NCBI RefSeq assembly: GCF_013409365.1
Contig: NZ_JACCBA010000001.1
Span: forward strand, 7,068,001-7,132,000
Source of the DNA: Actinomadura luteofluorescens
GTDB lineage: Bacteria > Actinomycetota > Actinomycetes > Streptosporangiales > Streptosporangiaceae
Length of the DNA stretch: 64,000 bases
Direction: 5' to 3'
The notes under the pieces are model-generated. The model was not told the origin of the DNA. It saw only the letters and a list, made by a program, of their open reading frames with translations, and made no database searches. A program made the position numbers and the translations under genes. This document shows, piece by piece, positions 45,464 to 54,642 of the stretch (positions within the stretch are counted from its first letter, which is position 1; each line of letters opens with the position of its first letter).

Positions 45464-46441
45464 ATGGCCATATATGAGCACCTTGAGGAATATGTCGGCC
45501 TTCCGGTGGCCACGTTCAACGAGGACACCGGCACCGAGGAGGAGGACGACGGCCGCGGCTCGGGCGTCGATCCCGTCAGCGGGGAGGACTTCCCGCCCGC
45601 GGGCGAGGCCGCCTGGTTCGTCGGGACCTCCTTCGACGAGGAGCCGTTCGGCGACGTCTGGGCGCGGTTCCGGGAGACGGTCGACACCACCGAGGTGACG
45701 GCGCTCATCATCGGCTACTGGGGCGCGTCCTACGAGCTGGAGAACGTCCCCGACCCGGTGCAGCTTCTGATCGGGGCGGCCGCGTCGTTCCCGAAGCTGC
45801 GGTCGCTGTTCCTCGGCGACATCACCGGCGAGGAGGCGGAGATCTCCTGGATCGAGCACGGTGACATCACGCCCCTGTTCGCCGCGTTCCCCGACCTGGA
45901 GCGGGTGGAGGTGCGCGGAGCGCAGGGGCTCGTCCTCGACCCGATCAAGAGCGGGAAGCTGAAGGTGCTGCGGTTCGAGTCGGGCGGGCTGCCGGCGCGG
46001 ATCGTCCGTGCCGTCGGCGCGAGCGACCTGCCCAACCTGGAGCACCTCGACCTCTGGCTCGGCGAGGCGAACTACGGCGGCGACGCCACCGTCGCCGACC
46101 TCGCGCCGTTCCTGTCCGGCGAGCGGCTGCCGGCGCTGCGCCACCTCGGCCTGGAGGACAGCGAGATCCAGGACGAGGTCGCGGCGGCGGTCGCCGGCGC
46201 GCCGGTCGTCGCCCGGCTGGAGTCGCTGAGCCTGGCGATGGGCATCCTGACCGACCAGGGCGCCGAGGCGCTGCTGGCCGGCCAGCCGCTCACCCACCTG
46301 CGCAAGCTGGACCTGCACCACCACTTCCTGTCGGACGCGATGGTCGAGCGGGTGCGGGCGGCGCTGCCCGGCGTCACGGTCGACCTGGACGAGCAGGAGA
46401 AGCCGGACGGCGACTGGCACTTCATCGCGGTGTCCGAGTGA
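45464..46441 (+). CDS. STM4015 family protein (leucine-rich-repeat-like), copy 1
   Basis: The 325-aa protein has an N-terminal segment (EHLEEYVGLPVATF), an acidic stretch, then four to five LRR-like units: LRSLFLGDITG, LEHLDLWLGEA, LRHLGLEDSEI, LESLSLAMGIL and LRKLDLHHHFL. It ends WHFIAVSE. STM4015 proteins are named for a Salmonella gene and accompany STM4011-STM4014; their role is not established, but an LRR fold suggests substrate or partner binding. The ATG at 45464 follows AAGGGGA. It is first in a six-gene run, with only 13 bases before copy 2. The longer upstream frame overlaps metI/metQ and is false. Confidence 0.9.
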   Translation: MAIYEHLEEYVGLPVATFNEDTGTEEEDDGRGSGVDPVSGEDFPPAGEAAWFVGTSFDEEPFGDVWARFRETVDTTEVTALIIGYWGASYELENVPDPVQLLIGAAASFPKLRSLFLGDITGEEAEISWIEHGDITPLFAAFPDLERVEVRGAQGLVLDPIKSGKLKVLRFESGGLPARIVRAVGASDLPNLEHLDLWLGEANYGGDATVADLAPFLSGERLPALRHLGLEDSEIQDEVAAAVAGAPVVARLESLSLAMGILTDQGAEALLAGQPLTHLRKLDLHHHFLSDAMVERVRAALPGVTVDLDEQEKPDGDWHFIAVSE

Positions 46442-46454
46442 CGGCGGCCTCCGA

Positions 46455-47408
46455 ATGATCCAGAAGCGCCTCTCGACCTTCGCGGGGCTGCCCGTCCACA
46501 CCTTCGACGGCGAGCCGGACGGCCCGCTGCCGGAGCCGGGGGACGTGGCCTGGGGCGTCTACCACCACGTCCACGACAACGGCGTGTGGGGCGCGGAGGT
46601 CCCCGCGAACCTCGACCTCCTTCTGGAGACGGTCGACACCGCCCAGGTCACCCATCTCGTCATCGGCTTCTGGGGGTTCACCCGCGAGGAGTTCGACCCG
46701 GTGGGGTGGCTGGTGGACCACGCCGGGCGGTTCCCCCGCCTGCGCGCGCTGTTCTTCGGCGACATCCTCGACTGGGAATGCCACATCTCCTGGATCCAGA
46801 ACGGCGACATCTCGCCGCTGTTCGACGCCTACCCGGGGCTGGAGCACTTCGAGATCCGCGGCGCGTCCGACCTGCGGTTCGAGCCGCTGCGGCACGAGCG
46901 GCTGAAGGCGCTGCGGATCGAGTCCGGCGGGCTGCCGGCCGAGGTCGTGCGGGCCGTCGCGGGCGGCGAGCTGCCCGCGCTGGAGCACCTGGACCTGTGG
47001 ATCGGTTCGGACATGCACGGCGGATCGTCCTCGCCCGATGACTACGCGCCCATCCTCACCGGCGAGCGGTTCCCTTCGCTGAAGCACCTCGGCCTGGAGA
47101 ACGGCCCGTTCCAGGACGAGCTGGCGGAGGCCCTGGCGAGCGCCCCGGTCGTCGCCCGGCTGGAGTCGCTCAGCCTGGCCATGGGGATGCTGTCCGATCG
47201 TGGAGCGGAGGCGCTGCTGTCCGGGCAGCCCCTCACCCACCTGCGCAGCCTCGACCTGCACCACGCGTTCCTGAGCGAGCCGATGGCCGAACGCCTTCAG
47301 GCGGCTTTGCCCGGCGTCGAGCTCGACCTTGAGGACGCGCTGGGCGAGGCGTCATGGGTGGGCCAGGAATGGGCCTTCAGCGACTCCTACGTCGCGGTGG
47401 CGGAATGA
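46455..47408 (+). CDS. STM4015 family protein (leucine-rich-repeat-like), copy 2
   Basis: The 317-aa protein is a tandem paralogue of copy 1. It shares the N-terminal GLPVHTF motif, ISWIQNGDISPLF (copy 1 has ISWIEHGDITPLF), LEHLDLWIG, LKHLGLENG, LESLSLAMGML and LRSLDLHHAFL, and ends in the same kind of tail (SYVAVAE). The copies have diverged throughout, so the duplication is not recent. Its stop overlaps the STM4014 start (ATGA), indicating a tight functional link. It may bind or present the substrate of the modifying enzymes encoded downstream. Confidence 0.9.
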   Translation: MIQKRLSTFAGLPVHTFDGEPDGPLPEPGDVAWGVYHHVHDNGVWGAEVPANLDLLLETVDTAQVTHLVIGFWGFTREEFDPVGWLVDHAGRFPRLRALFFGDILDWECHISWIQNGDISPLFDAYPGLEHFEIRGASDLRFEPLRHERLKALRIESGGLPAEVVRAVAGGELPALEHLDLWIGSDMHGGSSSPDDYAPILTGERFPSLKHLGLENGPFQDELAEALASAPVVARLESLSLAMGMLSDRGAEALLSGQPLTHLRSLDLHHAFLSEPMAERLQAALPGVELDLEDALGEASWVGQEWAFSDSYVAVAE

Positions 47409-48475
47409 CGCTCGCGGTGGTCGGCACGCCCGGCGACCGGCGACCCGCGCTGTTCGCCGCGGCGTGCCGGTCCGCCGGGCTGCCCGAGCCGCGGCTCGTC
47501 CCGTGGACGGACGTGCTGCGCGGCGCGCCGCTCACCTTCGGCGCCGGCGAGAGGGTCCGCGTCGACTCGCCCGGCGAGGATCCCGAGGCCGACGCGCTGC
47601 TGCGCGGCCCCGGCCCGCCCGAGCGGGTCGGCGGCGGGGCGCGCTGGCACCGGACGTTCACGGCGGCGCTGCGGCGGCTGTCGGCGTCGGCGTCGGCGTC
47701 CGGCGCCCGCTTCCTCGGCGACGTCGAGGAGATCGCGGTCATGTTCGACAAGCGGCTCACCCACGCCCGCCTGCTTTGCGCGGGTGTGCCCGTCCCGGCC
47801 GCTCTGCCCGAGGTCAACGGGTATGCGGCACTCCGTTCCCGGATGGACGAGGCGGGCGAGCGGAGGGTGTTCGTGAAGCCGGCGCACGGCTCCTCGGCCT
47901 CCGGGGTGGTCGCGCTCCAGACCGCCCCGGGCCGTGTGCGGGCCGTGACGTCGGCGTCCCTGACCGGTGACCGGCTGCTCAACTCGCTGCGCGTCCGCTC
48001 CTACGAGTCCGAGGAGGAGGTCGCGACGCTGGTCGGCCTGCTCGCGCCGGACGGCCTGCACGTCGAGCGTTGGCTGCCCAAGGCGACGCTCGGCGGGCGC
48101 GTGTTCGACCTGCGGGTCGTCGTCATCGGAGGCGAGCCCACGCACGTGGTCGTCCGGACCAGCCGGACCCCGATGACGAACCTGCACCTGGGCGGTGCCA
48201 GGGGTGACCTGGGAGCGGTGCGGCGCGCGCTCGGCGAGGACGGTTGGAAGCGCGCCATGGACGTGTGCGCGCGGGCCGCCGCGTGCTTTCCGGGCAGCCC
48301 GATGGTCGGCGTCGACCTGCTCGTGGGATTCGGGTTGAAGCGGTTCGCGGTGTGCGAGGTGAACGCCTTCGGCGACCTGCTTCCGGGCCTGACCGGCCTG
48401 CCCGGAAGTTCCGGCGAGGGCCTGGACACCTACGGCGCCCAGGTCAGGGCGATGGTGCAGGCATGCACGACATGA
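47405..48475 (+). CDS. STM4014 family protein (ATP-grasp-like)
   Basis: The 356-aa protein shows an ATP-grasp-like layout: an N-terminal Rossmann-like part (LAVVGTPGDRRPALFAAACR), the ATP-binding segment RVFVKPAHGSSASGV (residues about 154-168), FDLRVVVIGGEPTHVVVR, and the metal-binding end CEVNAFGDLLPGLTGL. ATP-grasp enzymes join a carboxylate to an amine or thiol, as in RiPP macrocyclization and peptide ligation. The substrate here is unknown. ATG at 47405 overlaps the stop of the second STM4015 gene. Its 3' end contains the first copy of a 26-base tandem duplication. Confidence 0.85.
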   Translation: MTLAVVGTPGDRRPALFAAACRSAGLPEPRLVPWTDVLRGAPLTFGAGERVRVDSPGEDPEADALLRGPGPPERVGGGARWHRTFTAALRRLSASASASGARFLGDVEEIAVMFDKRLTHARLLCAGVPVPAALPEVNGYAALRSRMDEAGERRVFVKPAHGSSASGVVALQTAPGRVRAVTSASLTGDRLLNSLRVRSYESEEEVATLVGLLAPDGLHVERWLPKATLGGRVFDLRVVVIGGEPTHVVVRTSRTPMTNLHLGGARGDLGAVRRALGEDGWKRAMDVCARAAACFPGSPMVGVDLLVGFGLKRFAVCEVNAFGDLLPGLTGLPGSSGEGLDTYGAQVRAMVQACTT

Positions 48476-48505
48476 ACACGGTGCAGACATGCACGACATG
48501 AACGA
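48454..48505 (+). repeat. 26-base tandem duplication at the STM4014/STM4013 junction
   Basis: GGTGCAG-G/A-CATGCACGACATGAACA (48454-48479) is repeated at 48480-48505 with two or three differences. It contains the STM4014 stop and a candidate STM4013 start. Before duplication the two genes would have overlapped at ATGA like the other genes of this run. Confidence 0.8.
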
Positions 48506-49289
48506 AGTCATCGGCAGCCACGACGTGCTGCTGGTGACCCTCGACACTCTGCGCTACGACGTGGCCGCCGAACTGGCCGCCGCGGGGGAGACCCCCACCC
48601 TCACCGGGCTGCTCCCGGAAGGCCGCTGGGAGCGCCGCCACACGCCCGGCAGCTTCACCTACGCCGCGCACGCGGCGATGCTGGCGGGCTTCCTGCCCAC
48701 GCCCGCGTCGCCCGGCCCGCATCCGCGCCTGTTCGCCGGCGCCTTCCCGGGCAGCGAGACCACCGCCGCCGGCACCTGGACGTTCGACGCCGCCGACCTG
48801 CCGGGGGGCCTTGCAGCCGCGGGCTACCACACGGTCTGCGTGGGCGGCGTCGGGTTCTTCAACAAGCTGACGCCGCTCGGATCGGCGCTCCCGTCGCTCT
48901 TCGCCGAGAGCCACTGGGAGCGCGGGTTCGGCGTGACCGACCCGGAGTCGCTGCCCAACCAGATCGACCGGATCGCCGAAGTCATGGCGCGGCTGCCTGC
49001 CGAACGCCGCCTGTTCCTGCTGCTGAACGTCGCGTCCCTGCACCAGCCCAACTGGTTCTACCTGGACGGCGCCACACGCTCGCACGGTGACACCCGCGCG
49101 ACCCACGCCGCCGCCCTCCGCCATGTGGACGCGCACATCGGCAGGTTGTTCGGGCTGATGCGCCGCCCGTGCTTCGTCATCGTCTGCTCCGACCACGGGA
49201 CGGCGTACGGCGAGGCCGGCCACACGGGCCACCGCATCGGCCACGAAGTCGTCTGGACCGTTCCGTACGGGGAGTTCGTTCTTTCGTGA
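48498..49289 (+). CDS. STM4013/SEN3800 family hydrolase (alkaline phosphatase/sulfatase fold)
   Basis: The protein of about 263 aa begins with the metal-binding strand VLLVTLDTLRYDVA and has the nucleophile region GSFTYAAHAAMLAGF and a late motif VIVCSDHGTAYGEAGHTGHRIGHE. These are the features of the alkaline phosphatase/sulfatase superfamily, which hydrolyses phosphate or sulfate esters with a Thr/Ser/formylglycine nucleophile. No signal peptide is present, so it works in the cytoplasm. The start is ATG at 48498 or, in the same frame, ATG at 48489, both within the duplicated 26-base unit. Its stop overlaps the STM4012 start. Confidence 0.88.
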   Translation: MNEVIGSHDVLLVTLDTLRYDVAAELAAAGETPTLTGLLPEGRWERRHTPGSFTYAAHAAMLAGFLPTPASPGPHPRLFAGAFPGSETTAAGTWTFDAADLPGGLAAAGYHTVCVGGVGFFNKLTPLGSALPSLFAESHWERGFGVTDPESLPNQIDRIAEVMARLPAERRLFLLLNVASLHQPNWFYLDGATRSHGDTRATHAAALRHVDAHIGRLFGLMRRPCFVIVCSDHGTAYGEAGHTGHRIGHEVVWTVPYGEFVLS

Positions 49290-50566
49290 ATCCATACCAG
49301 GCGTACGTGTACGCCTACCCGCACAAGACCGCCTACCGTCCGCTGCGGCCCGCACCCGGGTTGCGGGACGTGTGGGCGGGGGAGTCGCTCGACGCGCTCT
49401 TCCTGTACCTGCACGTCCCCTTCTGCGAGATGAGGTGCGGCTTCTGCAACCTCTTCACCCGCACCGGCGCGCCCGAAGAGCTGACCGGCGCCTACCTGGA
49501 CGCGCTCGACCGCCAGGCGACCGCCGCCCTGGACGCCCTGGACGGCGCCGCCTTCGCCACCGCGGCCTTCGGCGGAGGAACGCCGACCTACTTCACCGCG
49601 TCCGAACTGGAACGGCTCTGCGGCATCGCCGGACGGTTCCCCGGGTTCGGGTCGATACCGCTAGGCGTGGAAACGTCCCCGGCGACCGCCACCACCGACC
49701 GGCTGGCCGTCCTCGCCGACCACGGAACCACGCGCGTCTCCATCGGCGTGCAGAGCTTCCTGGACGAGGAGGCACGCGCGGCCGTCAGACCGCAGAAACG
49801 CGCCGAAGTGGAGGCCGCGCTGGACCGCATCCGCGCCGCGGGGTTCCCGATCCTCAACATCGACCTCATCTACGGCATCGACGGTCAGACGCCCGCGACG
49901 TGGCTGCACTCCCTGAACGCCGCTCTCACGTGGCGTCCGGAGGAGATCTACCTGTACCCGCTCTACGTCCGCCCGCTGACCGGCCTCGGACGCCGCGCCC
50001 AAGACTGGGACGACCAGCGCCTCATGCTCTACCGGCTCGGTCGCGACCACCTTCTTGGCGAAGGCTACGAGCAGGTGTCGATGCGGATGTTCCGGCTGCC
50101 GTCCTCAGGTGCGGGCGGCACGGAGTACTGCTGCCAGACGGACGGCATGGTCGGCCTGGGCTGCGGAGCACGCTCCTACACCTCCCGCCTCCACTACTCC
50201 TTCGAGTACGCGGTCGGAGCCGGGCAGGTGCGGTCCATCATCGACGACTACGTGCGCGAGACCGACTTCACCACCGCCCGGGTCGGCTTCTCACTGGACG
50301 ACGACGAACGCCGCAGGCGACATCTCGTCCAGTCACTTCTGCAAGCGACCGGTCTTGACCTGGGCACCTACCGCGCGCGCTTCGGAAGCGACCCGATGGA
50401 CGACTATCCCGCCGACCTGAAGCCGTTCGCTGAGCGTGGATGGCTGGAGACCTCTGAGGACGTCCTCCGGTTGACCCCCGAGGGGCTCGCCTACTCGGAC
50501 GCCATCGGCCCGGCACTGTTCTCGTCCCGCGTGCAGGCGCTGATGGCGTCCTACGAGGCGCGGTGA
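49286..50566 (+). CDS. STM4012 family radical SAM protein (HemN-like)
   Basis: The 426-aa protein has the radical SAM cluster motif in HVPFCEMRCGFCNLF (C47, C51, C54), the glycine motif FGGGTPTYF, an SAM-binding strand in LGVETSPAT and RVSIGVQSF, and a C-terminal winged-helix-like region of the HemN/HemW type (LDLGTYRARFG ... DVLRLTPEGLAYSD). HemN-type enzymes can use two SAM molecules. The reaction here is unknown. GTG at 49286 overlaps the STM4013 stop (GTGA), and the 3' end overlaps STM4011. Confidence 0.92.
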   Translation: MNPYQAYVYAYPHKTAYRPLRPAPGLRDVWAGESLDALFLYLHVPFCEMRCGFCNLFTRTGAPEELTGAYLDALDRQATAALDALDGAAFATAAFGGGTPTYFTASELERLCGIAGRFPGFGSIPLGVETSPATATTDRLAVLADHGTTRVSIGVQSFLDEEARAAVRPQKRAEVEAALDRIRAAGFPILNIDLIYGIDGQTPATWLHSLNAALTWRPEEIYLYPLYVRPLTGLGRRAQDWDDQRLMLYRLGRDHLLGEGYEQVSMRMFRLPSSGAGGTEYCCQTDGMVGLGCGARSYTSRLHYSFEYAVGAGQVRSIIDDYVRETDFTTARVGFSLDDDERRRRHLVQSLLQATGLDLGTYRARFGSDPMDDYPADLKPFAERGWLETSEDVLRLTPEGLAYSDAIGPALFSSRVQALMASYEAR

Positions 50567-51420
50567 TGGACCATCTGACGATCCTCTACCGGGGTCCGCT
50601 GGCCAGCTGCGACTACGACTGCCCGTACTGCCCGTTCGCCAAGCGCCGCGACACCCCGGAACAGCTCCGCGCCGACCGCGCCGCGCTCGAACGCTTCACG
50701 GAGTGGGTGTCGGGCTGCGGCCACCGCGTCTCGGTCCTGTTCACGCCATGGGGCGAAGGGCTCGTCCGCTCCTGGTACCGGCGCGCCCTCATCGACCTCA
50801 GCCACCTTCCGCATGTGGAACGGGTCGCGATCCAGACGAACCTCAGCCACCGCGTGTCGTGGACGGCGGACGCCGACCCCACACGGTTGGCGCTGTGGGC
50901 GACCTATCACCCCGGCCAGGTCCCGTACGAGCGGTTCCTGGGCAAATGCCTGGACCTCTCTGCGCGGGGGATCCGGTTCAGCGTCGGCATCGTCGGCCAG
51001 CCGGAGCACCTCGATGCCGCCCGCAGGCTCCGCGCGGACCTTCCCTCCGGAACGTACCTCTGGGTCAACGCGGCCGAGGGGCGCACCTACGACGACGCCG
51101 AGGCCGCCTCCTGGGCCGAGATCGACCCGCTGTTCCCCGTGAGCCGCCACCCGCACGCGAGCCGCGGCCTCCCCTGCCGGACGGGCGACACGGTCATCTC
51201 AGTCGACGGCGACGGGACGGTCCGCCGCTGCCACTTCGTCCCGTCCGTCCTGGGCAACCTCTACGACGGCTCGTTCCGGAACGCCCTGGCGCCCCGCCCG
51301 TGCCCTCTCGACACGTGCGACTGCCACATCGGCTACGTCCACCTCGAACCCCTCGGCCTCTACGACACCTTCGCCGACGGCATCCTCGAACGGATCCCAG
51401 CCCTGTTCGGCAAGCCCTGA
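50563..51420 (+). CDS. STM4011 family radical SAM protein with SPASM-like C-terminus
   Basis: The 285-aa protein has a radical SAM motif ASCDYDCPYCPF (C16, C20, C23) and, at the C-terminus, five more cysteines (C205, C223, C247, C252, C254) in the pattern LPCRTGDTVISVDGDG ... RRCHF ... RPCPLDTCDCHIG. This resembles SPASM-type auxiliary cluster sites, which are common in enzymes that modify ribosomal peptides. It starts GTG at 50563, overlapping the STM4012 stop. It is the last gene of the run and is followed by a strong terminator. Confidence 0.92.
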   Translation: MMDHLTILYRGPLASCDYDCPYCPFAKRRDTPEQLRADRAALERFTEWVSGCGHRVSVLFTPWGEGLVRSWYRRALIDLSHLPHVERVAIQTNLSHRVSWTADADPTRLALWATYHPGQVPYERFLGKCLDLSARGIRFSVGIVGQPEHLDAARRLRADLPSGTYLWVNAAEGRTYDDAEAASWAEIDPLFPVSRHPHASRGLPCRTGDTVISVDGDGTVRRCHFVPSVLGNLYDGSFRNALAPRPCPLDTCDCHIGYVHLEPLGLYDTFADGILERIPALFGKP

Positions 51421-51427
51421 CCACCGT

Positions 51428-51470
51428 CCAGGCCGCGGATCAGAGCGCCCGGCCCTGATCCGCGGCCTGG
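51428..51470. terminator. Bidirectional terminator closing the STM401x run and the WYL gene
   Basis: CCAGGCCGCGGATCAG and its exact complement (51455-51470) form a perfect 16-bp stem with an 11-base loop. It starts seven bases after the STM4011 stop and covers the last codons of the minus-strand WYL gene, so it serves both convergent genes. Confidence 0.85.
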
Positions 51471-52438
51471 CCCTGCCCGCTCTGCCGCTCTGGATCGCCG
51501 TTGTAGCGGCCGGCGAGTTCGGCGCCGATCCGGGCGAGTTCCCGCTGGACGGCAGGCGGCTCGACGACGTCGAGCAGCGCGCCCCACCCGGCGAGGTGGC
51601 GGGCGATGTCCAGCGGGGTCGGGGCGGCGACACGGACCCGGACGCGCCCGCGACCGGCCTCACCGTCGGTGCGGCAATGCCGTCCGAACTGGTCGCGCAG
51701 GACGGGCACGAACCGCTCCTCGACGAGCACCGTCGCCCACGTGCGCGAACGCCGCCTCTCGATCTCGTCGGCGACCTCCTGCCAGGCGGCGGCGAGGGTG
51801 AAGTCGTCGGGGCGTTCGGCGGGGAGGGCGGTCGGCTCGGCCCGGGTGATCCGGTCGACGCGGAAGGTCCGCCGCCCTCGCCCGGTGTCCGCCAGCAGGT
51901 ACCAGACGTCGTCCTTGTCGATCAGGCCCCACGGGTCGACCAGCCGTTCCGCCGGGTCTCCGGTGCGGCCGGCGTAGGTCAGGCGGATCTTGAGGCGGCG
52001 GATCACGGCGGTCTGCAGCAGGTCGACCATCGCGGGCCGGGGACGGTCCCGCTCGCCCCACCGGACGGGGTCGACGATCGTCGCGTCCAGGGCCGCCTCG
52101 GCGTCGGTGCGGAACGTCCTCGGCAGGGCGCCCAGGAGCTTGCGCAACGCCGCTCTGGCCTCGGGTGACACCGCGGCGGCGGGACCGGCCTGCAGGAAGA
52201 GCGCCTGCGCCTCGGACGCCGTGAGGCCGCTGAGGTCGGTGCGGGCGCCGCCGACCAGCTGCCAGCCGCCACCGCGACCCGGCTGCGGATAGACCGGGAC
52301 CCCGGCCGACGCGAGCGCCTCCAGGTCTCGGCGGGCGGTCGCCACCGACACCTGGAGCTCGGCCGCCAGCTCGGCCGCGGTCACCCGGCCGCGGACCTGC
52401 ATCAGCAGCAGGACGGCGACGAGACGGTCAGCGCGCAT
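51440..52438 (-). CDS. WYL-domain transcriptional regulator (DeoR-type HTH)
   Basis: The 332-aa protein has an N-terminal HTH_11/DeoR-type helix-turn-helix (RLVAVLLLMQVRGRVTAAELAAELQVSVATARRDL), a WYL domain (RLKIRLTYAGRTGDPAERLVDPWGLIDKDDVWYLLA, residues about 148-183) and a WCX-like C-terminal domain. WYL regulators bind ligands or nucleic acids and often control stress or defence genes. The gene is divergent from a YdeI-like gene. A perfect 9-bp inverted repeat sits between them as a likely operator. Start ATG at 52438. Confidence 0.92.
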   Translation of the reverse strand: MRADRLVAVLLLMQVRGRVTAAELAAELQVSVATARRDLEALASAGVPVYPQPGRGGGWQLVGGARTDLSGLTASEAQALFLQAGPAAAVSPEARAALRKLLGALPRTFRTDAEAALDATIVDPVRWGERDRPRPAMVDLLQTAVIRRLKIRLTYAGRTGDPAERLVDPWGLIDKDDVWYLLADTGRGRRTFRVDRITRAEPTALPAERPDDFTLAAAWQEVADEIERRRSRTWATVLVEERFVPVLRDQFGRHCRTDGEAGRGRVRVRVAAPTPLDIARHLAGWGALLDVVEPPAVQRELARIGAELAGRYNGDPERQSGQGQAADQGRAL

Positions 52439-53150: not shown

Positions 53151-54305
53151 TCAGGTCTGCTTCTCGGGGTGGTAGTCGGCCTCGTCCACGCCGAACGTCC
53201 ACGCGACGCCCGCGCGCGCCGTGCGCGTGTCGGGCGGGACGCGCAGGTAGTAGGTCCGGTGCGTGCCGTCCGGTTCCGGGGTGGAGTTGACCACCTCCAC
53301 CATGACCACCGGCTCGTCGCCCGGCAGCTCGATCGACCACAGGACGCCCGTCTCGTCCCGGTGCAGGGGACGCGCGCCCGTCTCGGCCAGGTAGCGGTCG
53401 TAACCGAAGATCTCCAGCATCACGCGGCGCAGCTCGGCGTTCTGCTCGGAGGAGATGCGGTCCGGCGTCAGACCGGTCAGCGACGCGACGAAGTCGGGCG
53501 GGATGGGCATGCCGCGCCAGGCGTGCAGCGCGAATCCGTCCGGATAGCCGAGGGCGGGACCGTCCCCGCGGTGCAGCCGCCCGGGCTCGTCGCGGTACAG
53601 CTCGCCCGGCCGCTCCGAGAGGATCGCCAGCCGCTCGTAGGGCCACCACCAGCCGGCCGACCGGGCCACCTCCGCCAGCCCCGCCAGCGGGCCGTCGAGG
53701 CGCCCGAGCGATTCGAACAGCGCCAGCCACGGCCCGTCGTGCTGGCCGAGGACGGCGTCGAGCGTGGCCGCGCGCAGCAGCGCCCCGGCCGCGTCCTCCT
53801 CCGGGGAGGGCCGCCTGTTCCCCGCCCTGCCGGGCCTGCCCTGCGCCTGTTCGCCGATCGCGCCGCGCACGCGCGTGACCAGCGCCTGCACCTGGCCCCA
53901 CAGCAGGCCGCCGGTCTCGGCCCACGTGCGCGGCCACTGCTCCGGCCCCTGCTCGGAGCAGGCGGCCGCACGTTCGGCCTCCCAGGGGCGGGTGCGCACG
54001 TCCGTCAGGACGCTCGGCCCGGCCTCACCGTCACCGAGGTCGGCGCGGGCCTGTTCGAGCAGTACGTCCAGCCCGGCCTTCTCCAGCGCCTCGCCGTGCC
54101 CGGCGATCACGGCGGCCACCGCGGCGCCGCGCGCGGGGGAGGGCACCCACAGGTACCGCTCGGGGGGCCTCAGCCCGGCGGAGGCGTAGGCGGCGGCCAC
54201 GCCCGCCTCGGCACGGGCGCGGTCGGCCGGCCCGGTGGCGAACGCCGCCGCCTGCCAGTCGCCGACCACGTAATGGGTCTCGCGTACCGTTTCGGTGAGC
54301 ATCAC
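53151..54305 (-). CDS. DUF6745-type protein
   Basis: The 384-aa soluble protein has an N-terminal WQAAAFATGPADRARAEAGV, a middle segment with many tryptophans (GWWWPYERLAILSERPGELYRDE), then GPALGYPDGFALHAWRGMPIP and a conserved C-terminal part (LEIFGYDRYLAETGARPLH ... MVEVVNSTPEPDGTHRTYYLRVPP), which I recognise as DUF6745. Function unknown. It starts with GTG at 54305, ten bases after the stop of the small upstream gene on the same strand, so the two form an operon. Confidence 0.8.
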   Translation of the reverse strand: MMLTETVRETHYVVGDWQAAAFATGPADRARAEAGVAAAYASAGLRPPERYLWVPSPARGAAVAAVIAGHGEALEKAGLDVLLEQARADLGDGEAGPSVLTDVRTRPWEAERAAACSEQGPEQWPRTWAETGGLLWGQVQALVTRVRGAIGEQAQGRPGRAGNRRPSPEEDAAGALLRAATLDAVLGQHDGPWLALFESLGRLDGPLAGLAEVARSAGWWWPYERLAILSERPGELYRDEPGRLHRGDGPALGYPDGFALHAWRGMPIPPDFVASLTGLTPDRISSEQNAELRRVMLEIFGYDRYLAETGARPLHRDETGVLWSIELPGDEPVVMVEVVNSTPEPDGTHRTYYLRVPPDTRTARAGVAWTFGVDEADYHPEKQT

Positions 54306-54315
54306 GTCCCCCTTC

Positions 54316-54642
54316 TCAGTCGGCCACGACGCGGACGGACCCGGGCACGTACTCGCGCTGCCGGATCACCCGGTACCAGCCCTTGGGCAGCGTGATCGCC
54401 GCGTGCTCCTCGTGCACCAGCCGCCCGCCGGAGGGCAGGTGCAGGTGGTCCGGCACGAGCGGGTCGGGGGTGCGCAGCAGCGTGCCGGGCCCGGCCAGCG
54501 CGTGCGCGTGCCCGGTGGCCTCGCCGAGGGCGAGCACCATGCGGCCGCGGCCGTCGCGCGGGGACGGCGGCAGCCCGCGCACGGACTGCGGAACCGCCTC
54601 CTCGGGCACGGGCAGGATCAGGACGTCTCCCTGTCGGTACAT
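54316..54642 (-). CDS. Small phage-like protein upstream of the DUF6745 gene
   Basis: The 108-aa protein reads MYRQGDVLILPVPEEAVP, LALGEATGHAHAL, and ends GWYRVIRQREYVPGSVRVVAD. This is a compact beta-rich family also seen in phages and in actinobacterial chromosomes next to DUF6745 genes. Function unknown. The ATG at 54642 has a leaderless-type promoter (TACGTT six bases upstream); the longer frame to 54708 runs into repeated control sequences. It is first in a two-gene operon. Confidence 0.75.
   Translation of the reverse strand: MYRQGDVLILPVPEEAVPQSVRGLPPSPRDGRGRMVLALGEATGHAHALAGPGTLLRTPDPLVPDHLHLPSGGRLVHEEHAAITLPKGWYRVIRQREYVPGSVRVVAD

Follow-up and report, generated by a model that had tools for sequence, protein, structure and literature searches.

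A conserved STM4015-to-STM4011 gene cassette in Actinomadura luteofluorescens as a candidate protein-carrier or protein-maturation system

Introduction

RimK acts on the C-terminus of a protein, ribosomal protein S6, and this modification is not known to involve radical S-adenosylmethionine (SAM) enzymes. Graspetide ligases such as PsnB have an ATP-grasp fold and work on carboxylates of a ribosomal product, and the graspetide core pairs a conserved Ser/Thr or Lys with Asp/Glu. The LysW/LysX pathway uses a kinase, a reductase, an aminotransferase, and a peptidase. LysW is described as a small carrier with zinc-binding Cys residues and an EDWGE ending, and the Glu of the carrier is the attachment site in the ArgX/LysX system (PMC10433800). 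Peptide aminoacyl-tRNA ligase (PEARL)-type scaffold systems (TglA, 3-thiaglutamate) likewise build on the C-terminus of a ribosomal scaffold; they use aminoacyl-tRNA, and the available sections of the source name neither an ATP-grasp ligase nor a leucine-rich repeat (LRR) scaffold (PMC9016710). The present work concerns a six-gene operon in a 64,000-nucleotide stretch of the Actinomadura luteofluorescens genome (assembly GCF_013409365.1, contig NZ_JACCBA010000001.1, positions 7,068,001 to 7,132,000), hereafter called the window. The operon encodes two copies of the LRR-type protein STM4015, the ATP-grasp ligase STM4014, the phosphodiesterase-like hydrolase STM4013, and the radical SAM enzymes STM4012 and STM4011.

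The five family names derive from Salmonella and Salmonella Enteritidis locus tags. An earlier interpretation of the window, made from its letters and open reading frames (ORFs) and called here the sequence-only reading, stated that these families have no established product. Among 5.39 million open-licence papers, two carry any of the five tags, in the passages available in tables only, and no functional study of STM4011–STM4015 was found, subscription journals and preprints lying mostly outside this literature.

The operon shares with LysW/ArgW and LysX/ArgX a putative carrier whose free C-terminal Glu (387 of 388 STM4015 sequences) follows an acidic stretch and an ATP-grasp ligase of the same fold, which is the best structural match of STM4014. 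It differs in that STM4015 is an LRR protein of approximately 300 amino acids with neither the LysW Cys motif nor the EDWGE ending, and in that it has two radical SAM enzymes and a phosphodiesterase instead of the kinase, reductase, aminotransferase, and peptidase. The odds are about even that the cassette works as a protein-carrier or protein-maturation system, with STM4015 as the substrate and STM4014 as the ligase that joins an amine to the terminal Glu of STM4015. The conserved Glu and the LysX/RimK-like ligase together give a hitherto unexplained cassette a testable role.

The C-terminal glutamate of STM4015

Among the 388 distinct STM4015 sequences, pooled from fetched loci and protein searches, the sole one without a terminal Glu is an N-terminal fragment, from a gene that an apparent frameshift has split (locus L141). 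As a control, a terminal Glu was found in 2 of 350 sequences of the four enzymes. In two protein searches, all 240 listed homologues, the best 120 of 3,843 and the best 120 of 1,685, ended in Glu. Reading inward from this residue, the commonest residues in 164 distinct locus sequences are S (then A, G), V, A, V (then I), Y (then F), and R, and the four most frequent residues directly before Glu are S (97), A (27), G (23), and D (8). The 325-residue copy a in the window contains no Cys and ends in WHFIAVSE. Tails from other genera are IYMNAMYTE in Salmonella, WRYPSLTE in Paenibacillus, WRYVALGE and WRFVALGE in Deinococcus, IYRSIAVSE in Methylobacterium, and WYYPMITE in Bacteroides. The tail follows a variable, acidic linker. 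In all, 13 to 36 residues come after the conserved Asp closing the body, and Asp/Glu account for 45% of the residues between this Asp and the last eight residues. Conservation does not extend to the adjacent Ser/Thr, which makes a graspetide-type linkage inside the tail unlikely. Unlike graspetides, STM4015 has no conserved Ser/Thr or Lys partner in its tail, and the substrate would be a large LRR protein.

In two fused double STM4015 proteins (P0121 and P0122), the tail is present on the second unit at the free C-terminus only, and the inner unit is without it. Orphan STM4015 genes in two genomes that also have the operon (L050 and L066) keep the terminal Glu. Genome G261, which has no over-cut-off STM4011, STM4013, or STM4014, carries an orphan intact STM4015 that ends in DPYFPAIID, that is, in Asp; with this copy added, 387 of 389 STM4015 sequences end in Glu. 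A tail-coding pattern searched across the whole genome with at most one mismatch matched at the two STM4015 genes only, although the pattern omits some codon choices.

The body of STM4015 has 22 invariant columns in 43 diverse sequences. Such a conserved LRR body is easier to reconcile with docking to shared enzymes than with recognition of varied targets. In a tree of 128 tips, the two copies of the window belong to different clades, and both clades also include copies from other loci, so the pair is old. The family has a solved structure, Bacteroides fragilis Q64V53 (PDB 2ra8; family profile match 2.3e-119). It is labelled uncharacterised, and no paper with that code or accession was found in the open-licence literature. 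The Bacteroides copy at locus L156 carries an N-terminal WGR domain.

STM4014 and the proposed mechanism

The predicted structure of STM4014 (predicted local distance difference test, pLDDT, 91.9) has ArgX/LysX and RimK as its nearest relatives in a structure search, and its similarity to the LysX/RimK-type ATP-grasp fold spans the whole protein. LysX and RimK are tied in this ranking, where rows with a Z difference under 1 count as ties, and the RimK–RpsF complex 5zk6 is among the rows. The sequence-only reading had allowed that the LRR-like protein itself might be the substrate. The invariant C-terminal Glu and the nearest structural relatives of STM4014 back this proposal.

Ligation at the C-terminal Glu of STM4015 by STM4014, followed by radical SAM chemistry, is the best-supported reading. 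It draws on what is directly observed in the gene families, the conserved cassette, the near-invariant Glu and its restriction to the free end of the two fused proteins, and the fold and relatives of STM4014. In the proposed mechanism, STM4015 would be the substrate, and its LRR body may dock the enzymes. The flexible acidic linker would present the short tail with its free terminal Glu, whose carboxylate STM4014 would activate with ATP and join to an amine-bearing compound. The HemN-like STM4012 and the SPASM-like STM4011 may work on either the tail itself or the tethered compound, probably by radical chemistry and in a step order that is itself conjectural, and STM4013 would hydrolyse a phosphodiester or phosphoester. 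A carrier form, in which the product is released, is slightly favoured over a maturation form, in which the group stays. If the carrier form is true, LRR proteins and radical SAM chemistry would join a mode of small-molecule synthesis that is rare. As a tentative and somewhat doubtful extension, LRR proteins could be reusable carriers on which a LysX-like ligase tethers a compound, the radical SAM enzymes rebuild it, and the phosphodiesterase trims it, with DUF6745 and a His-rich protein as partners. Such reusable carriers would be an undescribed carrier-protein class.

Several points weigh against ligation at this Glu. A covalent change of the STM4015 C-terminus is proposed from sequences and a predicted structure. 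The absence of the LysW Cys motif and EDWGE ending from STM4015 counts here, and the cassette has no peptidase for product release. The Asp-ended orphan comes from one genome, G261, and its tail is otherwise similar. The family profile covers the tail and may favour tail-bearing matches, and related sequences are not independent. Other ATP-grasp ligases are close behind for STM4014 (DcsG, 21.8; PurK, 21.1; D-Ala ligases, approximately 20), and the graspetide ligase PsnB is at Foldseek rank 3. By sequence, the top profile match of STM4014 is biotin carboxylase (7.7e-5), slightly above LysX and RimK, and STM4014 scores 26.5 bits against the RimK cut-off of 143.4 (TIGR00768) and 21.5 bits against the LysX cut-off of 275.6 (TIGR02144).

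STM4013, STM4012, and STM4011

STM4013 fits the phosphodiesterase/nucleotide pyrophosphatase superfamily, with PF01663 over its cut-off (32.5 bits; cut-off, 23) and with Thr and metal ligands aligned. In PDB, nucleotide pyrophosphatases/phosphodiesterases are its closest relatives (2gsn, 3.5e-7, with the Thr aligned), and sulfatases follow at 0.014 and worse. Residues T57, D235, H236, and H252 are present in 74 of 74 sequences. Sulfatases carry a C/S-x-P-S-R nucleophile motif with a formylglycine residue. Thr57 occupies the site of this motif in all 74 sequences, and the formylglycine-sulfatase reading was set aside, even though PF00884 is also over its cut-off (32.7 bits; cut-off, 25). The label "sulfatase-fold" in the sequence-only reading thus gives way to a nucleotide pyrophosphatase/phosphodiesterase match with an invariant Thr. 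Outside the cassette, an STM4013-family gene was observed in Kitasatospora (L157:9828-12786) beside MoaA-like radical SAM, thymidylate-kinase-like, and small genes, and another on a Streptomyces albidoflavus plasmid (L154:9744-11907) adjoins NUDIX and truncated-looking lasso-peptide B2 genes.

STM4012 is HemN-like (1olt, 4.6e-26; NocN, 1.8e-13 in a PDB search). It is a radical SAM member by PF04055 (68.8 bits; cut-off, 29.5) and has a CxxxCxxC motif, with Cys47, Cys51, Cys54, and Cys283 present in 89 of 89 sequences. It lies below the cut-offs for HemW (128.7 of 205.4) and HemN (123.3 of 324.95). STM4011 carries the CxxxCxxC triad together with five more cysteines, all eight invariant in 96 of 96 sequences, a pattern that appears SPASM-like. 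Its matches lie below the Pfam cut-offs for PF13186 (17.3 of 21.5 bits) and PF04055 (16.2 of 29.5 bits), and it has no sequence match in PDB.

Alternative explanations

Permanent maturation is unlikely. Here, STM4014 would extend the tail permanently with amino acids, as RimK does with ribosomal protein S6. The radical SAM enzymes would build a lasting group that activates the LRR protein, and no product would be released. However, two radical SAM enzymes and a phosphodiesterase exceed the needs of tail extension, and the LRR body is conserved, although diversity might be expected if these proteins had different jobs.

It is distinctly unlikely that the tail is a docking or recognition signal and that STM4015 is a scaffold or regulator, the real substrate being a separate small molecule or protein. 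Conserved C-termini can serve as docking signals, and the gene neighbourhood of the Kitasatospora STM4013-family member outside the cassette hints at chemistry on small molecules or nucleotides. This explanation nevertheless leaves unexplained both the strict Glu at the very last position and why the nearest structural relatives of the ligase modify a protein C-terminal Glu.

The sequence-only reading saw no classical precursor peptide, and a scan around the operons gave no conserved short ORF for a precursor. The scan covered ORFs other than STM4015 with a tail-like end within 4 kb of operon genes in fetched loci from L047 onward. It gave three matches: at L084, what appears to be the end of a frameshifted STM4015; at L100, an ORF on the opposite strand; and at L117:8833-8940, a mini-ORF. 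The last occupies the usual place of STM4015 and overlaps the start of STM4014; its end is MSVHRDPHFYVAVPE, with HFYVAVPE as the final residues. It may be a remnant, since the same genome holds an intact STM4015 elsewhere, or else a working peptide. A pathway for a ribosomally synthesized and post-translationally modified peptide, with the tail as core peptide, the LRR body as giant leader, and the modified end cleaved and exported, is very unlikely: PsnB is among the Foldseek top five for STM4014 and the L117 mini-ORF replaces STM4015 in its operon, but that mini-ORF may be a remnant, Ala or Gly precedes Glu in 50 of 164 sequences so that a Ser/Thr ester is not required, and the five conserved genes include neither the protease nor the exporter that the modified-peptide pathway of the sequence-only reading would need. 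Taken as a whole, that earlier interpretation is partly supported.

Conservation and distribution of the cassette

Co-occurrence was studied in 200 genomes of the same family, counting matches over the curated cut-off. STM4015 was found in 97 genomes, STM4013 in 97, STM4014 in 96, and STM4011 in 96. STM4011 and STM4014 occur in an identical set of 96 genomes, all inside the 97 with STM4015, and the extra genome is G261. Therefore, the gene set is not due to chance. Compared with the other lists by eye, STM4013 is alone in G219, and G261 is absent from its list. These genome-wide counts cover STM4011, STM4013, STM4014, and STM4015, whereas the presence of STM4012 was taken from the fetched loci. 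Across the phylum, the cassette is patchy (STM4015 in 5 of 198 genomes).

When named genomes were scanned with an STM4013 alignment, at least 585 relatives came up, and 80 named loci were kept. In 76 of these, STM4015 (one to six copies), STM4014, STM4013, STM4012, and STM4011 follow in that order on one strand. Of the other four, L080 and L083 start inside STM4014 at a contig end, L144 has a lone STM4013, and L117 has no STM4015 at that place. Neither of the two genomes with a lone STM4013 (L144 and G219) has STM4015. The full five-gene cassette was found in plasmid records of Salmonella (L150), Paenibacillus (L151), Deinococcus (L152 and L160), Methylobacterium (L153), and Streptomyces (L161). 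In Salmonella L150, a HAD-type phosphatase gene (L150:10910-11644) overlaps the end of STM4011, and in the partly decayed cassette of Bacteroides L156, a HAD-type phosphatase domain is fused to STM4011 (L156:8328-9893). The cassette, with one to seven STM4015 copies followed by STM4014, STM4013, STM4012, and STM4011, is conserved in Actinomycetota, and it is whole in at least four phyla of the sample, with a decayed copy in a fifth. The families thus co-occur in other genomes and keep their order across phyla, which was one of the checks suggested along with the sequence-only reading.

Viral spread was considered and set aside: no relatives of STM4011 were found in viral contigs with a single-protein query, which reaches close relatives only. 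No match to the Salmonella operon was found among 5,426 E. coli genomes at megablast sensitivity. STM4013 matches were present in three phage-collection records (H20–H22). Two of these records measure 2.2 and 5.9 kb, one bears the label Salmonella Infantis, and the matches probably stem from host DNA. An anti-phage defence system was considered and rejected, as PADLOC gave one weak match among eight proteins (STM4012 to PDC-M51A; 1e-4, 19 bits).

Gene organization in the window

The window belongs to a 9.62 Mb genome in a single contig, and STM4015 copy a shares 98% identity with a recorded protein of Actinomadura luteofluorescens. Its six cassette genes lie on the plus strand between 45464 and 51420, and all six proteins pass the NCBIfam curated cut-offs for the STM4011–STM4015 families (Table 1). 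The single direction of the six genes, as first described, is borne out by these coordinates and matches, and so are the three 4-base overlaps, which join copy b to STM4014 (47405-47408), STM4013 to STM4012 (49286-49289), and STM4012 to STM4011 (50563-50566). An NlpA/MetQ-type lipoprotein gene lies upstream, and a convergent WYL regulator gene (51440-52438, minus strand) lies 3' of the operon.

Table 1. Features of the cassette and its surroundings, in window coordinates
Feature	Position	Strand	Evidence
STM4015 copy a, LRR-type protein, 325 aa	45464..46441	+	NF038076 376.6 bits, cut-off 275
STM4015 copy b, LRR-type protein, 317 aa	46455..47408	+	NF038076 330.8 bits, cut-off 275
STM4014, LysX/RimK-type ATP-grasp ligase, 356 aa	47405..48475	+	NF038074 422.5 bits, cut-off 175
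STM4013, alkaline-phosphatase-superfamily phosphodiesterase-like hydrolase, 266 aa	48489..49289	+	NF038075 398.9 bits, cut-off 250
STM4012, HemN-like radical SAM enzyme, 426 aa, GTG start	49286..50566	+	NF006067 625 bits, cut-off 380
STM4011, radical SAM enzyme, 285 aa	50563..51420	+	NF038073 408.1 bits, cut-off 200
Tail of STM4015 copy a, HFIAVSE, final residue conserved Glu	46418..46438	+	
Tail of STM4015 copy b, YVAVAE, final residue conserved Glu	47388..47405	+	
Hairpin without T tract, between operon and convergent gene	51428..51470	.	Inverted repeat and folding
DUF6745 protein, 384 aa, frequent cassette neighbour	53151..54305	-	PF20530 360 bits
Small His-rich protein, 108 aa, paired with DUF6745	54316..54642	-	Alignment; neighbourhood in named loci

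The very strong terminator claimed for the end of the operon is only partly borne out, as a strong hairpin. The inverted repeat is 19 nt long and 95% complementary, and the region 51415-51480 folds with an energy of -39.6 kcal/mol (z = -5.5), which none of 200 shuffles equalled. No T run follows the hairpin, and a terminator scan found none. The hairpin overlaps the 3' end of the WYL regulator gene.

The DUF6745 gene and its small partner

The operon had also been described as a complete run, which left out the DUF6745 and small-protein pair at 53151-54642. Of the 80 named loci, 69 hold a match to one or both of these. Strong DUF6745 matches (at least 309 bits) are present in 75 of the 97 genomes with STM4015 and in 0 of the 103 others of the 200-genome sample. 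In 74 of these 75 genomes, DUF6745 is on the same contig as STM4011, always on the opposite strand (74 of 74); the gap between the two has a median of 132 bases and is never larger than 4,075. Weaker matches (at most 129 bits) form a separate group, which also extends to genomes that lack the cassette. Next to the cassettes of Salmonella, Paenibacillus, and Bacteroides, the pair was neither annotated nor found by profile search in the fetched stretches. No functional paper on DUF6745 or the small protein was found in the open-licence literature, and the small protein has no sequence match in PDB. The 108-residue protein contains the motifs GEATGHAH and HEEH, and its relatives end in V-x-Asp in 79 of 79 distinct sequences.

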